A stretch of DNA of 32,494 bases from a virus. The DNA is taken from IMG/VR virus record IMGVR_UViG_3300032308_002421, positions 1-32,494 of that record, one strand, 5' to 3'. How positions within the stretch are numbered: the stretch's first letter is position 1; the number at the start of each line of letters is the position of its first letter. The notes beneath the pieces were generated by a model. The model saw only the letters and a list, made by a program, of their open reading frames with translations, was not told the DNA's origin and did no database searches. The position numbers and the translations under genes are program-made. Of this stretch, positions 4,874 through 21,722 are shown piece after piece.

Positions 4874-6742
4874 CTAAAATAATACAACTGGTTTGTATTC
4901 GTCACCTAATAACTTATCTTTTTCTTTATTATCTTGTGGTTTGATTATTTCTTTGGGGGCAACTCCCCAGTTTAAAAGCCAAGACTGCAATTCTGATGCA
5001 TCTTGTTGAGTTGTTAATGGTTCATTTTGATCAAATTTACCAACAAAGGAAAATCCAGCATTTGATATATTATTTTTTTTAAAACTGGAAACTTGTCCAT
5101 AAAATAAAGGACTTTTTTTAATTAAATCAGAATTATCAACTAATGGATTTATTTTTAAGGGTCTTCCTTGATCGTCTGTGTCTGCTATTTGATAATATTT
5201 CACAGCAATTGATGGATCTAATATAAACAAAGCCCAAATCAAAGATAAAACTCTGTCATCTAAATCTTCATCTTTTCTTTTGCTGAATGTATAGTTCGGT
5301 AAACGTACAAAATTTTCTAATTCTAATAAGGTATCTATATCATATAACTGAACAGCTTTTAAACTGTTCGTCCAATATCTGAAGTTTGTAACTCCTTTAT
5401 ATCTTGTATTTGTATGATTATGTATACCAAATCTATTTTCTCTATTGTAGTGCTTGCTTACTCCTTCAAAATGATAAGAAACAACTGATTCATAGTTATG
5501 AGTGTGACATAAAACATCCAGTATTTGTTGACCGTTATTATTGTTTTCAACTAAGATGGGAGGTCTTCCCCAATCGTCTAAAATTCCCATTAAACGTGTT
5601 CCAAAATGAAAAGGACTCATTTGATTTGTTGCATAAACTGCAACTTGTTTAATGGCAGTTAAATCTGATACATCTAATATTTGAGCAACAGTATTTGATC
5701 GACCAATTCCTTCTCCTACGTCAACTCCAATAACATAAAATGCATTTGGATTTGGTTCAAAAAAAACTTTATATGCTCCATTATCCATCACCAATATAGG
5801 ATCTTTGCATTGGTTTTTTAAATTTGCCAGTAATTCTGGATCAATAGCAGTTTTACCCGGCTGGTGGAAAACGTTTCCAAATTCTTGGTCAAAATCTTCT
5901 TTTGAACCCATAGCAGCAATTGTTTCTCTTTTCCAGTCTTCGTCCCGACCGGGCACGTCAAACCAATTGACCACCTCTAATTTCCATTCCCCATTTTCTT
6001 TTTGAGATTCTTGATACAACTCATAAAATTTATTATCAGTCCCATTTGGAGTACTAATAACAACAATTTGGGACTTTTTTGAGGACGAAATAATCGGAAT
6101 AGCAGATTTCCACAATTCTTTCATTAATTCGTTTGGACAGTGAGCCATTTCGTCAATAATCAAAAGATTACTGGTAGTGCCGCGAGGACCCGCAGATGAT
6201 GTTGTGCTGATTGTTATAGCAGAATCATTAGCCAAATTAAATCCGTCTTTTCTCCAAGATTTTACACTCGGTTTCATCCAAATTGGCAACTGCTCAAATG
6301 CCATTTTGATTCGTGCAAATATTTCTTTTGCTGTTGATTCTTTGTTAGCAACGATTGTAATTCTTTTATCGCTTTGGAAACACACAATCCACAACGCATA
6401 AATTGTAATGGTAGTGGTTTTACCGCTTTGACGGCTAGATAAAACAACATTAAATCTGTTATTTTTAAATGCTTTTAAAAGTCTTTTTTGATATTTGTAT
6501 AATTCTATTTTTTTCTTTCCTTCATCTAATGTTGTTATATAGAAATAATTTTCTGCAAAATGTAATATACTTTTGTTACAAAGTTTTAACTCATCAATCA
6601 TTTTATCAGTCCATTTGAACTGAGAATTTCCTCTTAAAAGATTTTCATTTCCTTTATAGAATGAAGCATCTACTGTAACATCTTCTAAGTCGATTTGTTC
6701 TAAATCATCAACATTAGAAATTTCTTTTTTCTTTCTACCCAT
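4874..6742 (-). CDS. Terminase large subunit (T4 gp17-like ATPase-nuclease)
   Basis: A 622-residue DNA-packaging motor. ATPase domain: Walker A SRQSGKT at 103-109, Walker B LLIIDE at 193-198, and a coupling motif STPNGT at 230-235. The RNase H-like nuclease domain starts with GVDVGEG (Asp341), continues with an acidic residue in ILVENNNNG (Glu399) and ends with the DEDLDDR cluster (Asp495/496), so all the expected metal-binding acids are present. Length is close to gp17 (about 610 residues). It docks on the portal and cuts and pumps DNA into proheads. Unusually, it lies among baseplate genes, between a gp53-like and a tube-fold gene, rather than beside a small terminase or the sheath. No intein or intron is seen. 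ATG 6742 has a late-promoter-like motif 8 nt upstream. Confidence 0.95.
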   Translation of the reverse strand: MGRKKKEISNVDDLEQIDLEDVTVDASFYKGNENLLRGNSQFKWTDKMIDELKLCNKSILHFAENYFYITTLDEGKKKIELYKYQKRLLKAFKNNRFNVVLSSRQSGKTTTITIYALWIVCFQSDKRITIVANKESTAKEIFARIKMAFEQLPIWMKPSVKSWRKDGFNLANDSAITISTTSSAGPRGTTSNLLIIDEMAHCPNELMKELWKSAIPIISSSKKSQIVVISTPNGTDNKFYELYQESQKENGEWKLEVVNWFDVPGRDEDWKRETIAAMGSKEDFDQEFGNVFHQPGKTAIDPELLANLKNQCKDPILVMDNGAYKVFFEPNPNAFYVIGVDVGEGIGRSNTVAQILDVSDLTAIKQVAVYATNQMSPFHFGTRLMGILDDWGRPPILVENNNNGQQILDVLCHTHNYESVVSYHFEGVSKHYNRENRFGIHNHTNTRYKGVTNFRYWTNSLKAVQLYDIDTLLELENFVRLPNYTFSKRKDEDLDDRVLSLIWALFILDPSIAVKYYQIADTDDQGRPLKINPLVDNSDLIKKSPLFYGQVSSFKKNNISNAGFSFVGKFDQNEPLTTQQDASELQSWLLNWGVAPKEIIKPQDNKEKDKLLGDEYKPVVLF

Positions 6743-13588: not shown

Positions 13589-14146
13589 TTATACTCTCCA
13601 ATACTGGTATGCAAGAGTTGCTTGTTGAACCATAACTTCTCCCGAAGTTGTAACATCCATACTAACTTCTCCAACTGCTTGACAGTATGCACCATAAAGA
13701 GTATAAGTTCTGATTGCACTACCAGCTTTATCAATTAATGTTAAAATAACTTGATTTTCTGATGCATTGCTAGGAATACTATATGCTCCCGTGCTGGTTT
13801 CATCGTTAAAAACTTGATCGGTCCATTGTTCAAATTTTCTACGAATAGAAAGATTTTGAGGAATTCTAAAATTAACAGTCCATCCACCACTGTTTGGATA
13901 ACTTGCGGTGCCGGGTACGTTAAACCTGAGTCCCATAAATGGAACCTCAATGTTTGTAATTGCGCGTCCGGGTAATGTTGTGGAAGTTAAATAAAGAAGT
14001 TCATTTGCAGTGAATCTTTCTCCGCCTAAAGAAACGATACGAAACAAATTTGTTCGCATAAAATCATTACCGGCTGCTGCGTTGTAAAAATTCTCAATTC
14101 CTTGTTGAGCTAACAGAGATGTGCTTTGTATTAGAGGTGTTGCCAT
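13589..14146 (-). CDS. Major tail tube protein (gp19-like)
   Basis: A 185-residue protein of the length expected for the T4 gp19 family (163 residues in T4). It forms hexameric rings inside the sheath. Visible family features are N-L-F-R-I-V-S-L-G-G-E near residue 33, L-P-G-R-A-I-T-N-I-E-V-P-F-M-G (about 57-71), a Gly-Gly-W-T-V-N-F-R-I strand, F-E-Q-W-T-D-Q-V-F-N, and the C-terminal Y-G-A-Y-C-Q-A-V-G-E-V-S-M-D followed by A-T-L-A-Y-Q-Y-W-R-V. It sits 18 nt downstream of the sheath gene, the usual 18-19 order, and has its own late-promoter-like motif. Confidence 0.88.
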   Translation of the reverse strand: MATPLIQSTSLLAQQGIENFYNAAAGNDFMRTNLFRIVSLGGERFTANELLYLTSTTLPGRAITNIEVPFMGLRFNVPGTASYPNSGGWTVNFRIPQNLSIRRKFEQWTDQVFNDETSTGAYSIPSNASENQVILTLIDKAGSAIRTYTLYGAYCQAVGEVSMDVTTSGEVMVQQATLAYQYWRV

Positions 14147-14164: not shown

Positions 14165-16360
14165 TTATGAGATTAATTCTTCGAAACTTACTCCAGTTCT
14201 TGTTGCTATAAAATCCGCAAGGATAAATTCTACAGTACGAACTGGTTGAATATAAAGAGATACTCTCAATTCATTGTTATCAATCGTGCTTGGTGTGTTG
14301 TTTCTTTCATCACATACAATTGCATAATCATATAAACCTTCATTTAACTTAGCTTGTTCGAAGATAGGAGTTAAAGCTCCCACAACCCTAGCTCTTGTAG
14401 TAAATGTGTTTGGTTCAAATACATAGTATTTTAATACATTTTGTGCGGATTTTTCCAAACTTAAAAACAATCTGCGAACATTAATTCTATCAAATGCTGA
14501 TGGTTTACGATAAAGAGTTTTTTGACCATAAATTACATAACCATCATTTGAAAAGAATGCAATAGGATTAATGTTGATTTTGTAAAGCAAATCTCTTTGT
14601 TTTTGGGTTGGATTGATTCCAACATCAGATACATTTAATAAAGATCCACGGTTAAATCCAGCAGGTGCGGACCATGGATATGCTATTTGTGCAGATGACG
14701 CAAAGATAGCGGCAGCATAACCAGACGCAGGAACCCAACAAAAGTTATCAGATGCCATGTCTGTAGTTCTGAGCCAGTTTCCATAAGTTACAACATAACT
14801 GGATTGAACATTATCAAATAAATTTCTCAAAGGCCAATATATATCATTAGAGAAAATAAAATTTTTATTTTTCGATGATTTTACATTGGATCCTTTTACA
14901 AAAATTTGTCTTAAAGGATCTGCAATAAATACATGATCTTTTCTTGTTTTATCAGCAAATGCTACAAATTGATTTAAAATTTGAGCATAATCTTGAACTA
15001 TTCCTCCAACTGGACTTCCGGTAGTACTTTTCAAGGCTGTTATATCTAAAGGATACGTATCATCAAATATTTGTGGCTGATTAGTAAAGTTAGCATCCGC
15101 TTTTCTTGCTTTAGCAGTAGTCCAAATTGTTCCTAATCCTGCTTCTATTATTACATCCAAGTCGATTGTATCATTATTTTCCAAGGATCTTAATATTCTT
15201 TCAAGTTTTTGCGGAACAGCACCAACATCTTTTACACGCTTATCCGTATTTGATGTATAAACACCAACAGAATAAAGATTTTTTGAAGTTGGATTGACTC
15301 TTACTGTTTTTCTCGAAGTTCCGTCATTATTAAGCCAATTTCCTTCGGTAGATATAAAAGGATTTGTAATAACTCGGATATTTCCAGAATTTTGATTAAC
15401 TAAATTATCTAAAAATGAATTATTAAAGTTACCGCCATTTGGATTTTGTTGAGTTCTTAAAGAATAAAGTGAACCAGTATAACCTTCGGACGTAATGTAA
15501 TCTAAAGTTACGGTATCTTGTTGATATACGGTATTTCTAAGTTTAAAAACCATTAAAGTAAGATAATCATTAAATTTAGAAGTAGCAAAATCATAATTGG
15601 TTGGAAAATTTTCAACAAGTTCAGATAAACTGTTTGTTCCATATGAAGAGGCATTTGCTGTCAAACTAAATCCAAGTCTCGAAGAAGGAAGTGCTACAAA
15701 AGTTTGATATAAATTATTTGTTGAAATTACATTTGCTGCTTTAATACCTGTAATTGCTTCAAAAGCTGTAGATGGATTACTGTTTGAATTGTCTGCTAAC
15801 GCAATATAATATCCTTCAAAAAGATTATTTACAGTAGTTTTTGCAGAGTTTAAAACTACCAATCCAGCACTACCAATTTGTGAAAAATCCCCAACACTTC
15901 GATTAATAAATCCATTATTCCATGCAACATTATTTTCTATTAAATCGAGGTATTCATCTTCTGTTAAAAGAATTGATTCTGGTTCTAAAACTTGATACGA
16001 TGTTGCTGCATCATAAGTATCGGCGTTTGCGGAAATTCTATAAACCAATGCACTATATGTGTTGGTAAATCCTTCGCCCATACCAGAACCATATGGCATT
16101 CTTGTAAAAAGAAGATTCGCAGGAGATGTTGTTAAAAGTTGTTTTGCAGAATGGTATGTGTATCTTTCTGCTGCATTTTGAGGAGAACCGAATATTTGTT
16201 CATATTCTGTCAAGCTTGTAATATTGATAATTTCATCTGTTGGACCTTGATCAGCAAACCCTGTAAAAAATACATTTGTTTCTCCTGTTGGTCTAGAAAT
16301 TAAACTCAAATCAATTTCATTAATTTGAACGCCTGGTGATGCTATTGTTCTTGCTGCCAT
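14165..16360 (-). CDS. Tail sheath protein (gp18-like)
   Basis: A 731-residue protein of the contractile sheath. N-terminal MAARTIASPGVQINEIDLS is the standard sheath start (P-G-V-x-x-x-E-x-D-L), followed by F-F-T-G-F-A-D-Q-G-P and I-T-S-L-T-E-Y-E-Q-I-F-G. The C-terminal domain is also typical: INVRRLFLSLEKSAQNVLKY, FEPNTFTTRARVVGALTPIF and Y-I-Q-P-V-R-T-V-E-F-I. The C-terminal arm interlocks neighbouring subunits. Length is a little above T4 gp18 (659). It is the first gene of the leftward late module and carries the clearest late-promoter-like motif upstream. Confidence 0.95.
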   Translation of the reverse strand: MAARTIASPGVQINEIDLSLISRPTGETNVFFTGFADQGPTDEIINITSLTEYEQIFGSPQNAAERYTYHSAKQLLTTSPANLLFTRMPYGSGMGEGFTNTYSALVYRISANADTYDAATSYQVLEPESILLTEDEYLDLIENNVAWNNGFINRSVGDFSQIGSAGLVVLNSAKTTVNNLFEGYYIALADNSNSNPSTAFEAITGIKAANVISTNNLYQTFVALPSSRLGFSLTANASSYGTNSLSELVENFPTNYDFATSKFNDYLTLMVFKLRNTVYQQDTVTLDYITSEGYTGSLYSLRTQQNPNGGNFNNSFLDNLVNQNSGNIRVITNPFISTEGNWLNNDGTSRKTVRVNPTSKNLYSVGVYTSNTDKRVKDVGAVPQKLERILRSLENNDTIDLDVIIEAGLGTIWTTAKARKADANFTNQPQIFDDTYPLDITALKSTTGSPVGGIVQDYAQILNQFVAFADKTRKDHVFIADPLRQIFVKGSNVKSSKNKNFIFSNDIYWPLRNLFDNVQSSYVVTYGNWLRTTDMASDNFCWVPASGYAAAIFASSAQIAYPWSAPAGFNRGSLLNVSDVGINPTQKQRDLLYKININPIAFFSNDGYVIYGQKTLYRKPSAFDRINVRRLFLSLEKSAQNVLKYYVFEPNTFTTRARVVGALTPIFEQAKLNEGLYDYAIVCDERNNTPSTIDNNELRVSLYIQPVRTVEFILADFIATRTGVSFEELIS

Positions 16361-16426: not shown

Positions 16427-16434
16427 CTAAGTAT
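16427..16434 (+). promoter_or_regulatory. Late-promoter-like motif of the rightward operon
   Basis: CTAAGTAT ends 11 nt before ATG 16446. It resembles the motif upstream of the minus-strand structural genes, with the A-to-G change also seen at 6751, 13564 and 20279. A sigma-70 -10-like TATATT overlaps (16432-16437), so the class is uncertain. Confidence 0.4.
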
Positions 16435-16445
16435 ATTTACATTAC

Positions 16446-16727
16446 ATGAATAATAAATTTGATTTATATGTTTCTTCTCTTTTAGAAGAAGCTGCAAGAT
16501 GTACAAAAGTAACAGGAAAAACTTCATCGGATCGTAAAGGAAAAAAGTGGATGAAATGCGTTAAAAATCCTAAAGGTGGATATAAAAGAATACATTGGGG
16601 ACAAAAAGGAGTTCGCGTAACAGGAAAATCGGGAAATACGAAACGTAAAAAATCATTTAGAGCTAGACATAAGTGCTCAAGCGCAAAACCCGGCACACCA
16701 AGATATCAAGCTTGTAAAGATTGGTAA
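16446..16727 (+). CDS. Small basic Cys-containing phage protein with capsid-targeting-like N-terminus
   Basis: A 93-residue, strongly basic protein. The first 15 residues (MNNKFDLYVSSLLEE) form an amphipathic helix ending in L-E-E, like the T4 capsid-targeting signal cut by the gp21 protease after (L/I)-x-E. The remainder has Cys19, Cys38, Cys77 and Cys90 and the conserved ending KSFRARHKC...GTPRYQACKDW, which I know from many phage and large-virus small proteins of unknown function. Four spaced cysteines suggest zinc binding. The very basic body suits DNA binding inside the head. It is first in the rightward operon, 18 nt ahead of a second gene with the same kind of leader. Confidence 0.68.
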   Translation: MNNKFDLYVSSLLEEAARCTKVTGKTSSDRKGKKWMKCVKNPKGGYKRIHWGQKGVRVTGKSGNTKRKKSFRARHKCSSAKPGTPRYQACKDW

Positions 16728-16730
16728 AAA

Positions 16731-16739
16731 GAATAAATA
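16731..16739 (+). promoter_or_regulatory. Late-promoter-like motif before the 121-aa gene
   Basis: GAATAAATA lies between the TAA of the preceding gene and ATG 16746, leaving 6 nt. It keeps the ATAAATA core. It could equally be an AT-rich ribosome-entry leader. Confidence 0.35.
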
Positions 16740-16745
16740 AAACAC

Positions 16746-17111
16746 ATGAACAAATTTCAAACAATATTAAACGGAGTAATTGAAGAGCTATCTACAAGCA
16801 TATCTATGAATCCTCAACAAATTGAAAAAGATTTAGAAAGACTTCCAGCACAAACAAAGGATGTTCTTCAAAAAATTGCAAAACCTTTAGAATCTGGAAC
16901 TGAAAAAAATCCAAATGAAGATTTAATGAAAAATTTAGAAGAATTAGATTTTGAAAAATTACCAACAAATCAACAAGAAAAATTAATTAAAATTTTAACA
17001 AACAAAGGTTTTTTAAAACCAAATTCAACAAGTACAGAAAAATCTGAAGAAGATCAGAAAAATACACTTACACAACAAAACAATTCCAACCCCGCTTCCT
17101 ACGGTGTTTAA
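16746..17111 (+). CDS. Hypothetical acidic, helical protein with capsid-targeting-like N-terminus
   Basis: A 121-residue protein with no recognised family. The N-terminal MNKFQTILNGVIEE is an amphipathic helix ending I-E-E, again matching an (I/L)-x-E prohead-protease site. The body has repeated helical phrases (D-L-E-R-L-P, L-E-E-L-D-F-E-K-L-P, Q-Q-E-K-L-I-K-I-L), and the last 30 residues are Ser/Thr/Asn/Gln-rich and probably disordered. It is followed 2 nt later by PhoH. I infer an internal head or assembly protein from the leader and its neighbours. Confidence 0.6.
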   Translation: MNKFQTILNGVIEELSTSISMNPQQIEKDLERLPAQTKDVLQKIAKPLESGTEKNPNEDLMKNLEELDFEKLPTNQQEKLIKILTNKGFLKPNSTSTEKSEEDQKNTLTQQNNSNPASYGV

Positions 17112-17113
17112 TT

Positions 17114-17899
17114 ATGAAAAAAAATAAGCCTCGTCGTAATAAAGAGGCATCTGCAGAAAAATTATCAAAAGATAATTCTCCATATGTCTATCAAAGAGAT
17201 AAAGTAGCATTTGATTTTACAATCAAAGAATTGCCTTGGACGGATAAGCAAAAACAATTGATTGAAATTCTTTTGGATAAAGATACTCGCTGCGTATTCG
17301 TAGAAGGTCCTGCGGGAGTTTCCAAAACAATTACTGCAGTTTATGCCGGTCTTCATTTATTAAGAAATAAAAAAATTTCCGATATTGTTTTTGTCAGAAG
17401 TGCTGTAGAAAGTGCAGATAGTAAAATCGGGTATTTGCCCGGCACGATTGATGAAAAATTTGAAGCATACATGGTTCCTTTTATGGAAAAATTAGAAGAA
17501 CTTTTAGATAAAGCATCTATTAACAGATTGAGAAATGATGAAAGATTCAACGCCACGCCCGTAAATTATATTCGTGGTTTACACTGGGCAACTAAATGTG
17601 TAATTGTAGACGAATGTCAAAATATAAGTTTTCGAGAATTGATCACAACAATTACTCGAATGGGTGAATTTTCTAAAATTATTTTTTGCGGAGATCCTAT
17701 GCAATCCGATTTGCCGGAAAATAAAGCTGGAGGATTTTCCAGAATATGCGATATCTTTGCAGATGAAGAATCAAAAAAATTTGGAATTCATCATTTTGAA
17801 TTCACCAAAGATGATATTGTCCGTTCCGAATTTGTAAAATTTGTTGTAAACAAATTAGAAAACGAAAAAAATACTTGGAAACCAGCAAATAACAAGTAA
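17114..17899 (+). CDS. phoH: PhoH-like P-loop ATPase
   Basis: A 261-residue PhoH-family ATPase. The Walker A loop is GPAGVSKT at residues 65-72; the usual form is GPAGTGKT, so a Ser replaces the last Gly before Lys. Walker B is VIVDEC at 163-168, followed by Q-N, and then F-C-G-D-P-M-Q (about 196-202), the typical PhoH third motif, is present. Phage PhoH proteins are common, but their role is not settled; RNA-related ATPase activity has been proposed. It sits in an operon of small head-type genes and is preceded by a 2-nt gap. A late-type motif overlaps its stop codon and precedes the next gene. Confidence 0.9.
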   Translation: MKKNKPRRNKEASAEKLSKDNSPYVYQRDKVAFDFTIKELPWTDKQKQLIEILLDKDTRCVFVEGPAGVSKTITAVYAGLHLLRNKKISDIVFVRSAVESADSKIGYLPGTIDEKFEAYMVPFMEKLEELLDKASINRLRNDERFNATPVNYIRGLHWATKCVIVDECQNISFRELITTITRMGEFSKIIFCGDPMQSDLPENKAGGFSRICDIFADEESKKFGIHHFEFTKDDIVRSEFVKFVVNKLENEKNTWKPANNK

Positions 17900-17904
17900 A
17901 TATT
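17896..17904 (+). promoter_or_regulatory. Late-promoter-like motif before the zinc-ribbon gene
   Basis: GTAAATATT overlaps the TAA stop of phoH and ends 6 nt before ATG 17911. The core TAAATATT is identical to that before the sheath and tube genes. Confidence 0.42.
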
Positions 17905-17910
17905 TAAATA

Positions 17911-18093
17911 ATGCAACAACCACAATACATGACAGTAGAAAATCGACCAATCCCATGTTCATTTTGCAGTGCTACGGTGAACGGTAGAATCATGGAAAAA
18001 ATAGATCCAACATCAAAAGAAACAGTAAAAGAATGTCGTTGGGTATGTTCTCGTTGTGGCAATTTGGTTAAAGTTGGAACAGTCGCTAAATGA
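17911..18093 (+). CDS. Small zinc-ribbon protein
   Basis: A 60-residue protein with two CxxC knuckles, Cys16/Cys19 and Cys46/Cys49, plus Cys42, separated by a beta-rich loop: the layout of a zinc ribbon. The end (WVCSRCGNLVKVG) is classic for such folds. It could bind nucleic acid or a protein partner; nothing more specific can be read. Its TGA stop overlaps the ATG of the next gene (ATGA), indicating translational coupling with a likely head protein. Confidence 0.72.
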   Translation: MQQPQYMTVENRPIPCSFCSATVNGRIMEKIDPTSKETVKECRWVCSRCGNLVKVGTVAK

Positions 18094-18557
18094 AATTAAA
18101 GGATTTAATAGAAGAAGTATATGACCAAGGACCAAAATCCTATCCGGCATATAGCTCATCTCCTCGCAAAGATTTTGTTCCATATTCCACAAAAGATGGA
18201 TATAATTTTCCATATCAAAAAAATACACCTCCGATTTTTCCGCCTGAACCTCCACAACCAGCAAACCCAGTAGCTTTACCTTGGCCATTACAAACGATTA
18301 ATGATGATTTATCGGATGCTTACATATATCTTTTAGGAGCAGCTAAAAAAATAAGTGACGTAGTTGCAAACAATCCTACAATCAATTCTGAACAAAAAAC
18401 GCAATTTACAGAGTTGTATAAAGATTTAAAAATTTCTCTTGATCATATTAAAAAAGTAGGCTTAAAAGTTTCAGATGTAGCTAACATGGCTTCTCCAGTA
18501 ACAGTACAAGTTACATTAACTCCAGAACCAATTAAACCGGAACATCCATTCCTGTAA
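18090..18557 (+). CDS. Putative virion protein with capsid-targeting-like N-terminus
   Basis: A 155-residue protein. It opens MKLKDLIEE followed by V-Y-D-Q, a short amphipathic leader ending I-E-E, close in shape to the T4 capsid-targeting decapeptide. Residues 14-65 are Tyr/Ser/Pro-rich with a proline tract (P-P-I-F-P-P-E-P-P-Q-P). Residues 70-130 are helical (DAYIYLLGAAKKISDVV, then E-L-Y-K-D-L-K-I-S-L-D-H-I-K-K-V). The C-terminus is Pro-rich. It is coupled to the zinc-ribbon gene by an ATGA overlap. The leader and proline-rich linker suggest a structural or scaffold-associated protein; no enzyme motif is visible. Confidence 0.62.
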   Translation: MKLKDLIEEVYDQGPKSYPAYSSSPRKDFVPYSTKDGYNFPYQKNTPPIFPPEPPQPANPVALPWPLQTINDDLSDAYIYLLGAAKKISDVVANNPTINSEQKTQFTELYKDLKISLDHIKKVGLKVSDVANMASPVTVQVTLTPEPIKPEHPFL

Positions 18558-18564
18558 TATTTTA

Positions 18565-18593
18565 TTGACATACACTAAAAAATAGTGTATTAT
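18565..18593 (+). promoter_or_regulatory. Strong sigma-70-type promoter with operator-like inverted repeat
   Basis: TTGACA (18565-18570), exactly 17 bp, TATTAT (18588-18593). The spacer is itself an inverted repeat: TACACTA (18571-18577), five A, TAGTGTA (18583-18589), reaching into the -10. Start of transcription would be near 18600, 5 nt before ATG 18605, so the leader is nearly absent. The promoter match is excellent. The repeat could be an operator for a repressor or phage regulator. Confidence 0.72.
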
Positions 18594-18604
18594 TCTTCAA
18601 TAAA

Positions 18605-19027
18605 ATGAAAATTAATTTAAAACTCCAAAAGTTTATAACTTCTACTTTTATTGTATTTGTTATATCTTTATTAGGAGGAATAACTGGATATCTTTTAGTT
18701 TCAAATTTTTGGGCATTTTTTATATTATTTTTTATAGTTCAGTATATTATATTTTTTGCAACTTCCACGATTATCCAATCGTTTTTTATAGAAAAAACAA
18801 AACAAAAAGAATTAGATAAGTTAGAAAATCTTTCTACAATTTTAAATTGTGCATATTGTAATCAAGCAAATATAATGACATTTTTACCTGAAAACAACAA
18901 TAGAGTAGAATTTACTTGTGAAAATTGCAAAAAGAAAAATTTAGTCACGATGCAATTTGTTGTAGCGCGTATAACAGAACCTGTATCATTACCAAAAGTA
19001 ACCGGAATTCCTTTAGAAACTGCATAA
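18605..19027 (+). CDS. Two-helix membrane protein with a C-terminal zinc ribbon
   Basis: A 140-residue protein. Two hydrophobic segments at about 12-32 and 36-60, separated by a short turn, give a hairpin in the inner membrane. The soluble C-terminal part has Cys82/Cys85 and Cys105/Cys108, a zinc-ribbon pair. The connecting loop is short, so both ends are on the same side, likely the cytoplasm. I do not recognise the family. It has its own strong host-type promoter, unlike the head genes to its left, so it is probably an early gene with a host-takeover or membrane role; that is inference. Confidence 0.72.
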   Translation: MKINLKLQKFITSTFIVFVISLLGGITGYLLVSNFWAFFILFFIVQYIIFFATSTIIQSFFIEKTKQKELDKLENLSTILNCAYCNQANIMTFLPENNNRVEFTCENCKKKNLVTMQFVVARITEPVSLPKVTGIPLETA

Positions 19028-19030
19028 AGT

Positions 19031-19333
19031 ATGAAAAATAAAAAAATCTTTAATTTAAAAAACAATAAAAAATCATTGAAAAATTGGGATAAAATTTACA
19101 ACGAAGCAGCAGAATTAGCGCGATGGATTTGTGTGTACGAAGCAGTTAATATGATAGCAGACAAAGCAGAAGAAAAAAAATTATCTTTTGATAAGATAGA
19201 CATTAAGCCTTTAGCTATATACAAATATATGGAATCCATGGAAGATATTTTTTTAAAAAAAGCATTAGATCAACTATATAATATTAAAATATGTTATAGC
19301 GAAAATTCTGAAAATTTAGAATTTTCTTATTAA
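19031..19333 (+). CDS. Hypothetical helical protein, end of the rightward operon
   Basis: A 100-residue Lys-rich, helical protein with no recognised family. Phrases such as Y-N-E-A-A-E-L-A-R-W-I-C-V-Y-E-A-V-N-M-I-A-D-K suggest two amphipathic helices. It starts 3 nt after the membrane-protein gene and is probably co-transcribed from the 18565 promoter. Its stop shares a TTAA with the stop of the convergent neck gene, so the two frames end on the same four bases. An AT-rich inverted repeat lies within its last codons. Confidence 0.6.
   Translation: MKNKKIFNLKNNKKSLKNWDKIYNEAAELARWICVYEAVNMIADKAEEKKLSFDKIDIKPLAIYKYMESMEDIFLKKALDQLYNIKICYSENSENLEFSY
19301..19326. terminator. Possible bidirectional AT-rich terminator hairpin
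   Basis: GAAAATTCT (19301-19309) and AGAATTTTC (19318-19326) are perfect 9-bp arms with an 8-nt loop, located where two convergent operons meet. It has few G/C pairs and no clean U-run, so it is a weak candidate inside coding sequence. Confidence 0.28.
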
Positions 19334-19959
19334 TATTCTCCATAAACGGAAGTATTACTACAAGCATTATCTTCCAGATAATCAAAATTTTTATTTGATG
19401 CTTGTTCGATTTTATCATTATCATCCGGAGGATTGTTACCCATGCCGCCTCCTGGACTATTGTTTTCGAAACTATAATCATATCTTTTAGCTTTGAAAAA
19501 CCATACATAATGTCCTCCAATGGCATTTAATTGAAATTCATCAATAACTTCGGTTAATTCATAAACTGTTGGTCCTCGTTTTGGATAATTTAAACGATCT
19601 ATACCAAATTCAGTCAACTTCATCAAGTCTCCTGCTTTAGGTTCAGAAGATAATCCATAAATTTGTGTAAAATGTAAAGGATGAATAACACCTGTCATAT
19701 CACTATCCGCAACAATTCCAAATTTTGATAAAAGATATGAATCATTGTTTAAATTTAATAAAACAACCAACGGTTGACCATTACCATATGCTACATCCGG
19801 TTCTTCGCCGTATAAAGGATTCATGGCAGTAAGATTAGCATTTATCGAATAATAGTCAGTCATTTGACCGAATAAATCAATTTGTTCTTTCCACCAAAAA
19901 TAAAAATTTCTTCTTTCGTTTTGGTTGTATCTTTTATCTAAAAATCTTACTTTTTCCAT
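19330..19959 (-). CDS. Neck / head-closure protein candidate (gp14-like)
   Basis: A 209-residue protein. It begins R-Y-N-Q-N-E-R-R-N-F-Y, then F-G-Q-M-T-D-Y-Y, N-P-L-Y-G-E-E-P-D-V-A-Y, L-L-S-K-F-G-I-V-A-D, G-D-L-M-K-L-T-E-F-G and V-Y-E-L-T-E-V-I-D-E-F, and reaches H-Y-V-W-F-F-K-A-K-R-Y-D-Y-S. This order (N-x-E/Q near the start, 'LFGEDP'-like loop, 'SKFG', 'GDLI', 'FEVTEVIDE', 'yvWkf..kr.eyS') is what I know from T4 gp14-type neck proteins that join head and tail. The last 45 residues are Gly/Asn/Asp-rich. The first 13 nt overlap the end of the upstream 108-aa gene. Confidence 0.5.
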   Translation of the reverse strand: MEKVRFLDKRYNQNERRNFYFWWKEQIDLFGQMTDYYSINANLTAMNPLYGEEPDVAYGNGQPLVVLLNLNNDSYLLSKFGIVADSDMTGVIHPLHFTQIYGLSSEPKAGDLMKLTEFGIDRLNYPKRGPTVYELTEVIDEFQLNAIGGHYVWFFKAKRYDYSFENNSPGGGMGNNPPDDNDKIEQASNKNFDYLEDNACSNTSVYGEY

Positions 19960-20273
19960 TTTGTTTTTTTGTAATATCCTTTATTTGGAATATAAATTAA
20001 AAATTGTCCAGAATCTCTTAATGCCTTTTCAAAATATTTTGATTTATCTTCCTTATCAATATTTAATCCATAATCACTAGCAATTTTTTGTGCTTCTGTG
20101 TCGGTAATTTTTTTATCTGCACCATCAACTAAAGGATTTTTATACTGATATGGACTTTGTGATTTTGCCACAATATTTTGATGTTTACGTTCGGCATTAA
20201 CGTCAACTATTCTTTTAACACTTTGATGATGTGGTTTACTGTCAGTTAATTTAAAGTAATCTTTAAAGTTCAT
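19947..20273 (-). CDS. Hypothetical small basic protein
   Basis: A 108-residue protein, Lys/His-rich, with no recognised family. N-terminus MNFKDYFKLTDSKP recalls the short 'MxFKxx' leaders of nearby genes but has no (I/L)-x-E cleavage site. The C-terminal half has D-T-E-A-Q-K-I-A-S-D-Y-G-L-N-I, then SGQFLIYIPNKGYY. It is the first gene after the strong terminator, has its own late-type motif, and overlaps the neck gene by 13 nt, so it is probably an accessory structural gene of that unit. Confidence 0.6.
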   Translation of the reverse strand: MNFKDYFKLTDSKPHHQSVKRIVDVNAERKHQNIVAKSQSPYQYKNPLVDGADKKITDTEAQKIASDYGLNIDKEDKSKYFEKALRDSGQFLIYIPNKGYYKKTKWKK

Positions 20274-20278
20274 TTTAT

Positions 20279-20286
20279 ATACTTAC
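20279..20286 (-). promoter_or_regulatory. Late-promoter-like motif directly after the terminator
   Basis: The minus strand reads GTAAGTAT, ending 5 nt before ATG 20273 and lying just past the U-run of the 20293-20316 terminator. Terminator followed at once by a new promoter-like motif separates the acidic-protein unit from the neck unit. Confidence 0.45.
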
Positions 20287-20290
20287 TAAT

Positions 20291-20316
20291 AAAAAACCCC
20301 GCCAAGGCGGGGTTTT
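20291..20316 (-). terminator. Rho-independent terminator
   Basis: Arms AAAACCCCGCC (20293-20303) and GGCGGGGTTTT (20306-20316) form an 11-bp stem with a GC core (7 G/C pairs). On the minus strand the stem is followed by six T (20296-20291), giving a strong terminator 22 nt after the stop of the acidic-protein gene. On the plus strand the T-run is four, so it could work weakly in both directions. It is the clearest terminator in the window. Confidence 0.9.
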
Positions 20317-20337
20317 CTAATTTTATTTTAATATTTT

Positions 20338-21168
20338 TTATTGATCAAATAAGAATTTTCCTACTTTAACACCATTTGCATCAATTTTTGATTTGCTTGT
20401 AAGTTCTTCTGGATTATCTGTGCATTTTTCAGGTTTTCCATTAACTTTTTTACCCTTTACAACTTCTGCTTTTTTCTTGGAAACAGGAACAGCACCTTTG
20501 ACTTCATAGTTTGAATGTTTTGTCATTCCTTTTTCTAATTTTTCTTGATCAACCAATGCATGACCATGATATTCAGCTTCTACAGCTTCTTGTTTCATTT
20601 CATCAGTTTCATTTTCTCCTTCAAGATCAAAATCTTCTAATCCTTCTTCACTTTCTTCTTCTTCTTCTTCTTCTCCTTCTTCTTCCTCATTTCCAAGAAC
20701 AGACATTAAAACATCATGAAGTTTTTGGGCTGTTTCACGATCTAAAGTAAATGTAACTTCTTCACTTTCTTCTTCTTCTTCTGATTCGTCGTCAAATTCT
20801 TCTAATGAATTGTCAGTTTCTGTTTCATCTGAAGGTTCTAAAGAATTATCTTCTGTAGAAAAATCAAACATTTCTTCGTTTATAACTTTATTATAAAGAG
20901 CATCGAATGGATTATTTGATTCGGATTTTACTTTTTCTAATTCACCAGTAGCACCATCGCTTGTTAACTCATCGGGAGCTTCTTCAACATCTTCTAATTC
21001 GCTTTCTACGTTTTCTGCAGAATTTTTAGGAAATGTTTCATGTGCTTTTTTATCCGATTCTTTATTCCCAAAAGTTTTACCAACTTGAGATTTTGTTGAA
21101 TCTACAATACCGGAAGAAGTTGCTTCTTCGATAACTTTTAAGTATGCTTTTGCTATTGGATCTTTCAT
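20338..21168 (-). CDS. Very acidic probable prohead core / internal head protein
   Basis: A 276-residue protein. The leader MKDPIAKAYLKVIEE ends I-E-E before A-T-S-S-G, matching the (I/L)-x-E prohead-protease rule. The middle is extremely acidic, with runs of Glu/Asp and Ser around residues 110-195; the DNA there has TTC/CTT micro-repeats. The C-terminal 80 residues are basic (Lys-rich, K-G-K-K-V-N-G-K-P). An acidic body cut by a head protease is typical of T4-type core proteins (gp22, gp67). I do not see a specific family signature. A strong terminator follows its stop, and a GATAAATA motif precedes its ATG. Confidence 0.65.
   Translation of the reverse strand: MKDPIAKAYLKVIEEATSSGIVDSTKSQVGKTFGNKESDKKAHETFPKNSAENVESELEDVEEAPDELTSDGATGELEKVKSESNNPFDALYNKVINEEMFDFSTEDNSLEPSDETETDNSLEEFDDESEEEEESEEVTFTLDRETAQKLHDVLMSVLGNEEEEGEEEEEEESEEGLEDFDLEGENETDEMKQEAVEAEYHGHALVDQEKLEKGMTKHSNYEVKGAVPVSKKKAEVVKGKKVNGKPEKCTDNPEELTSKSKIDANGVKVGKFLFDQ
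20652..20687. repeat. TTC microsatellite coding a poly-Glu tract
   Basis: Runs of TTC/CTT on the plus strand (GAA/GAG codons on the coding strand) occur at 20652-20687, with a shorter second run at 20761-20785. They encode the acidic tract of the putative core protein. Such repeats are prone to length change by slippage in steps of 3 nt without breaking the frame. Confidence 0.7.
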
Positions 21169-21179
21169 ATGTATAATAT

Positions 21180-21187
21180 TATTTATC
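21180..21187 (-). promoter_or_regulatory. Late-promoter-like motif before the acidic core gene
   Basis: The minus strand reads GATAAATA, 11 nt before ATG 21168, in the short gap between two likely head-core genes. It is the same octamer as before the sheath and tube genes. Confidence 0.52.
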
Positions 21188-21212
21188 TTAGTATTTTCCC
21201 TTTTTATAAAAA

Positions 21213-21704
21213 TTATTTATTTTTAACTTGTTTGGATGTTATTTTTTTTCCGTATTTTTTGGCACCCTTTTTAACACCTTTAACGCAGCGTTCTTTTTTT
21301 CCTTTGTTTTTTATTTTACCACAAACTGCCCAAGGATTAACATCTTTCGACTCATATTTTAAAGAATCAATTTCATCTATATCAAAAGTATCATCCATTT
21401 TATTTTGCGATTCGTATTCTGCCACTTGAGAAACACTTTGAATATTATCAGTAATAACTGCAATTTTTTCCAATTGCCATGGTTCTAAATGTGCTCCTGC
21501 TTCTAATGAATCTAAAAGACCTTTAGCATGTTTACAGATAGCATAAAGATTAGATTTCGCCATCGATTCTTCTTCTCTTTCTTCTAAATGATCACAGGAA
21601 AATGGCGCATCTGGTGATTTAATATCATCCATATCATCGAGATTTTCCCGATTTAAAATTTTTACATATGCATTTTCCAATAAAATTTGATCTTTAAACT
21701 TCAT
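21213..21704 (-). CDS. Putative head-core protein with capsid-targeting-like N-terminus
   Basis: A 163-residue protein. Leader MKFKDQILLE ends L-L-E at residue 10, the same length as the T4 capsid-targeting peptide. The middle, S-N-L-Y-A-I-C-K-H-A-K-G-L-L followed by L-E-P-W-Q-L-E-K-I-A-V-I-T-D-N-I, resembles a helical module I know from cyanophage and other phage structural proteins ('L..I...A..L...l.....le.W...KI..A...I..V..y'). The C-terminus has N-P-W-A-V-C-G-K and E-R-C-V-K-G-V-K-K, another recurring phage block, and ends very basic. I infer a DNA-associated internal head or core role. Confidence 0.65.
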   Translation of the reverse strand: MKFKDQILLENAYVKILNRENLDDMDDIKSPDAPFSCDHLEEREEESMAKSNLYAICKHAKGLLDSLEAGAHLEPWQLEKIAVITDNIQSVSQVAEYESQNKMDDTFDIDEIDSLKYESKDVNPWAVCGKIKNKGKKERCVKGVKKGAKKYGKKITSKQVKNK

Positions 21705-21714
21705 AACTTTAATA

Positions 21715-21722
21715 TATTTATC
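21715..21722 (-). promoter_or_regulatory. Late-promoter-like motif before the 163-aa core gene
   Basis: The minus strand reads GATAAATA, 10 nt before ATG 21704, touching the stop codon of the upstream nuclease gene. It separates late head genes from the probably early ATPase/nuclease pair. Confidence 0.52.

Follow-up and report, generated by a model that had tools for sequence, protein, structure and literature searches.

Phage T4 packages and injects a handful of internal proteins; among these, IPI inhibits a restriction enzyme, and one host strain cannot be infected without IPIII (PMC3012670, PMC9391042). The N-terminus of IPII and IPIII reads MKTYQEFIAE. The specificity of the T4 prohead protease gp21 is L/I-x-E, and in the capsid-targeting sequence (CTS) residues 4 and 7 matter for targeting and residues 8 and 10 for processing (PMC9026906). 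The heads of phiKZ and SPN3US likewise contain many packaged proteins with propeptides that are cut by a phage prohead protease, the cleavage motif of phiKZ being S/A-x-E (PMC9026906). Here, we analysed a 32,494-base fragment of a T4-superfamily myovirus, which makes up the whole of IMG/VR record IMGVR_UViG_3300032308_002421 and is referred to as the window. Five of its genes, named A to E, resemble those for IPI, IPII, IPIII and Alt of T4 in that unrelated bodies are preceded by short N-terminal leaders with a terminal [I/L]-x-E; they differ from phiKZ in the motif, [I/L/V]-x-E instead of S/A-x-E, and in having short leaders. Based on sequence comparison, we consider it likely that the leaders are T4-type capsid-targeting propeptides.

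The original prediction had described five open reading frames with such leaders, clustered on both strands, and mutually unrelated bodies. All five exist, span 5.3 kb and have bodies without detectable similarity to each other (all pairs E>0.2). A to D would carry class I leaders and E a class II leader of about 20 residues, a type that occurs on many unrelated bodies in relatives. Gene F, a neighbour with a similar start, served as a control.

16446..16727, plus strand: gene A, 93 amino acids, basic and Cys-containing; leader MNNKFDLYVSSLLEE (16446-16490), predicted cut after Glu15
16746..17111, plus strand: gene B, 121 amino acids; leader MNKFQTILNGVIEE (16746-16787), predicted cut after Glu14 (Glu13 possible)
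18090..18557, plus strand: gene C, 155 amino acids, Pro-rich, C-terminal helical hairpin in the AlphaFold2 (AF2) model; leader MKLKDLIEE (18090-18116), predicted cut after Glu9
20338..21168, minus strand: gene D, 276 amino acids, very acidic; leader MKDPIAKAYLKVIEE (21124-21168), predicted cut after Glu15
20872..20913, minus strand: candidate internal site of D, NPFDALYNKVINEE, residues 86-99, with Y-x-x-[IV]-[IL]-x-E spacing as in the D leader
21213..21704, minus strand: gene E, 163 amino acids, starting MKFKDQILLE; class II leader MKFKDQILLENAYVKILNRE (21645-21704), about 20 residues; position of the cut uncertain (after Glu10, or none)
19947..20273, minus strand: gene F, 108 amino acids, starting MNFKDYFKLTDS; control neighbour, no conserved [ILV]xE

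The loose motif, defined as [ILV]xE with the Glu at residues 7-20, was found in 9 of the 44 called proteins of the window, compared with 5.8 in shuffles. Because this difference is not significant, the count was not used as evidence and homologues were tested instead, with N-termini of >70% identity collapsed and the numbers compared with shuffle means. The motif was present in 6/6 homologues of A (expected 1.3), 7/8 of B (expected 2.3, with a shifting motif position), 20/24 of C (expected 5.0), 26/29 of D (expected 7.7) and 12/12 of E (expected 3.7), with p values of 0.0002 to 0.0012 across the five families. For the negative control F, only 1/24 homologues carried it (expected 1.6). Within the alignments, E15 of A is invariant among 18 sequences (residue 14 being E, T or N), E15 and Y9 of D are among six invariant columns in 28 sequences, and E9 of C is among six invariant columns in 30 sequences, while the residue preceding the predicted P1 Glu varies in all three. 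Judged from these comparisons, conservation, and not the motif count alone, is what makes the five leaders significant. An origin by chance and composition, that is, from the abundance of Glu, Ile and Leu in short N-termini of an AT-rich phage, would agree with the loose count in the window (9 versus 5.8); it is contradicted by p≤0.0012 in each of five families next to a negative neighbour, as well as by the proteome-wide excess over shuffles and internal segments described below, and we regard it as extremely improbable.

A more specific test used a spacing taken from T4 and not from the present data: a hydrophobic or aromatic residue at P7, a hydrophobic residue at P4, I, L or V at P3 and Glu at P1. 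Five of the 44 called window proteins matched (0.6 expected; at most 4 in 300 shuffles), among them B, C and D; A, which is absent from the called set, also fits. The spacing in the D leader, Y9-V12-I13-E15, is exactly that of the CTS of IPII and IPIII, Y4-F7-I8-E10. In the relatives, matches numbered 7-20 per genome compared with 4-7 expected, the excess being weakest in G006, and T4 itself gave 15 versus 7.5 in the same test. With a position weight matrix (PWM) score of at least 7, 92 N-termini were found, against a background of about 20 estimated with shuffles or internal segments, a result that is supportive rather than independent because training members are counted in it. Combining the PWM with class II leaders yields about 13-23 candidates in each near-complete relative, spread genome-wide and a minority of them expected by chance; the leaders thus extend beyond the cluster of five originally proposed. 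Leaders of the KF type within class I occur on 21 body families, some by chance; a scan with a strict class I DNA pattern returned only 2 stretches.

A T4-type reading predicts a matching protease. PF03420 (Peptidase_S77, the gp21 family) is encoded in 7/7 of G001-G007, the relatives of >128 kb carrying the same gene cluster; the original prediction would have been called into question by a full genome without a prohead protease, and every near-complete relative has one, the window itself being only a fragment. In five of the seven, we read an operon of protease, small basic protein, gp22 and gp23; in two of these, gene calling did not resolve the small protein. The gp22 of the relatives has a conserved N-terminal [IL]-x-E-E site, and their gp23 (5/5) contains, in the region of the T4 gp23 cut, ENQERWC[IL]EE, followed across the presumed cut by S, G or A. 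T4 gp23 has ENQEKDF and, later, LTE with the cut before AE, and it is from T4 that the cut position in this clade is inferred. Among 17 further records, mostly contigs with class II leaders, S77 was found in two, including the largest (170 kb); the remaining ones are fragments of 40-107 kb, and absence there therefore says little.

Four relatives also encode a protein of 80-94 amino acids, here called mini-gp23, with three parts: a leader, a second version of the gp23 arm located behind the presumed gp23 maturation site, and a Lys-rich tail.

G002, 108656-108916: mini-gp23
G003, 69823-70065: mini-gp23
G005, 133077-133361: mini-gp23
G006, 88075-88320: mini-gp23

In the G002 protein, the leader MFNKFQILVNTLLE, ending in LLE at the predicted cut, is directly followed by the gp23 arm (57% identity over 35 residues, E=5e-10). 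The occurrence of one gp23 arm behind [IL]xE in two different proteins strengthens the assignment of the gp23 cut position.

Cultured Flavobacterium, Roseobacter and Pelagibacter phages also encode homologues of the A body. In three cultured phages these proteins start with MAESVKSNMKC, MAIDKARMKC and MAIDKSKMKC, and the leader is absent. The S77 protease was not found in 3/3 of these records, while the T4 positive control was detected with E=4e-113. The leaders might alternatively be ordinary amphipathic helices for membrane or partner binding, in which [ILV]xE is incidental and no protease site is present. The hydrophobic positions around the motif are indeed enriched as in a generic amphipathic helix, and AF2 models place helices at the leaders with low confidence. 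It is contradicted by a Glu that is invariant while x varies, by the motif where gp23 is presumably matured, by the position of the gp23 arm directly behind a leader in mini-gp23, and by the absence of the leader from phages without the protease, and we consider it unlikely.

The T4 late promoter is TATAAATA. As such, this sequence has 1 match in the window versus 6.5 expected; the clade uses related octamers, ATAAGTAT and GATAAATA, which are 25-29x enriched within 40 nt upstream of genes in the window and relatives. As for the T4 internal proteins and Alt, a late-type promoter motif accompanies leader genes, in addition to the S77 protease, which is here found in relatives.

16428..16435, plus strand: late-promoter-like TAAGTATA, 18 nt upstream of A
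16733..16740, plus strand: late-promoter-like ATAAATAA, 13 nt upstream of B
21179..21187, minus strand: late-promoter-like GATAAATAA, 19 nt upstream of D
21714..21722, minus strand: late-promoter-like GATAAATAT, 18 nt upstream of E

The late-like motif precedes 31/75 leader genes versus 209/1227 others (Fisher p=1.6e-6, orthologues not collapsed) and was present in 6/799 intragenic controls. For class II genes, the figure is 24/54, compared with 3.6% of random 60-mers. Because F also has the motif, it marks late genes generally and not leader genes alone.

The leader of E proved to be of a different kind. We scanned IMG/VR with the pattern M-x-x-KDQILLE, which leaves positions 11-20 free, and obtained 106 stretches corresponding to 95 unique proteins in 56 body families without mutual similarity after residue 25. 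Outside the pattern, Y13 is found in 53/56 families and I or V at position 16 in 44/56, with background level reached from residue 21, which gives the consensus M-x-x-KDQILLE-x-x-Y-x-x-[IV]. A second [ILV]xE with the Glu at 17-22 is present in 40/56 families compared with 7.1 by shuffle (maximum 18), and 14 families have the exact T4 spacing as Y13-I16-L17-E19. Conservation to residue ~20 together with this second site indicates a leader of about 20 residues, of which Glu10 is probably not the end, and makes a predicted E cut at Glu10 doubtful. The second site of E in the window, AYVKILNRE, does not fit the rule. The claim that each leader has 9-15 residues and ends in (I/L)-x-E holds for A to D; E has the motif at Glu10 but probably a longer leader and, judged by its N-terminus, is a member of a large modular tag family.

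Several class II bodies have recognisable domains: GP88 (4e-35 and 1e-17), GNAT acetyltransferase (2e-7) and tRNA nucleotidyltransferase (PHROG, 1.5e-59), the last of these not starting before residue 56. For one further body, the similarity to ADP-ribosyltransferases stayed below the Pfam cut-off and is a lead only. On one strand of contig IMGVR_UViG_3300027805_000022, the class II leader is matched eight times within 14 kb; the bodies belong to many separate families, and the region is possibly a fast-changing cargo island.

For A to D, the capsid-targeting reading of the original prediction is well supported by the invariant Glu in A, C and D, S77 in the relatives, the matching gp23 motif and the leaderless A homologues in phages without S77, while E has to be assigned to a different leader class. 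The leaders are best explained, as far as sequence allows, by a T4-like mechanism acting on bodies that by homology are not T4 internal proteins; searches of A to E against Pfam and PHROGs gave no body homology to IPI, IPII, IPIII or Alt. According to this model, the short amphipathic N-terminal helix would bind the assembling prohead core, whereby the protein becomes enclosed. A gp21-type S77 protease would then cut after [I/L/V]-x-E; the mature body, set free within the head, would stay with the DNA and may be ejected into the host. Targeting, cleavage, presence in the virion and injection are steps that we infer.

We lean towards the view that an uncultivated T4-like clade uses the capsid-targeting tag as a general loading address. 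A tag of about 20 residues on dozens of interchangeable proteins (tRNA nucleotidyltransferase, GNAT, GP88 and possibly ADP-ribosyltransferase) would direct them into the head and, on delivery along with the DNA, provide an injected arsenal that is modular and changes fast. T4 differs from this clade, in which leaders are diversified, about 13-23 candidates occur per relative and one leader type is found on 56 body families; the scale of class II, with 95 proteins, exceeds the few internal proteins of T4. A tentative alternative holds that the leaders are prohead-protease sites on scaffold or core proteins that are destroyed at maturation, at least some of the five being core and not cargo. D speaks for it: the protein is very acidic, its internal spacing pattern is present in 28/28 homologues, and this second conserved site would be as in a core protein such as gp22 or gp67, which in T4 are core proteins cut into fragments (PMC9026906). 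D and C are also kept across many relatives, as a structural core protein would be. Acidity and conserved N-terminal and internal sites link D to T4 gp22, gp67 and gp68, from which it differs in lying away from the gp21-22-23 operon in relatives, and D itself may belong to the core, either in place of a role as cargo or in addition to it. In the alignment of A, we noticed no comparable second site that is conserved, and the enzyme domains among class II bodies suit cargo better than scaffold.

Certain observations weigh against the capsid-targeting interpretation. The motif is missing from L080, one near homologue of B, which reads KTSEMLG; no late-like promoter directly precedes C; and E at Glu10 lacks the T4 spacing. 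Since A, C and D supplied the training set of the PWM, their scores do not count as independent evidence, and both the counts and the Fisher test are inflated by orthologues. Within the 32 kb window, no capsid gene was seen and no prohead protease (PF03420) was found, the record being a fragment.

If the T4 tag logic holds here, the cargo proteins of uncultured phages would become readable from genome sequence alone. The result would be a catalogue of proteins that are candidates for counter-defence or takeover, few of which are recognised by Pfam, and phages may bring a large protein cargo into infected cells. In addition, the old T4 question of what defines a capsid-targeting sequence becomes a comparative one, with many natural examples of defined spacing.

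Regarding the individual bodies, D had no match in Pfam or PHROG. The AF2 model of C contains helices 67-94 and 100-131, which form the helical hairpin, and had no significant match in the PDB; the model of A was poor (pLDDT 64). A basic stretch around KGKK..CVK is found in both A and E, with NPWAVC...CVK in E homologues, and may represent a DNA-binding or metal-binding patch in common.

The surrounding genes of the window include the following.

4874-6742: terminase
13589-14146: tail tube
14165-16360: tail sheath
17114-17899: PhoH
19330-19959: head closure protein, Hc2-like

INPHARED searches with C, D, E and the class II leader peptides gave no match. The nearest relatives of the window are uncultivated contigs of up to 227 kb, and the tail sheath matches INPHARED entries at only ~35% identity. 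With 731 amino acids (up to 898 in relatives), the sheath can be aligned to cultured T4-like sheaths only over residues ~410-730.

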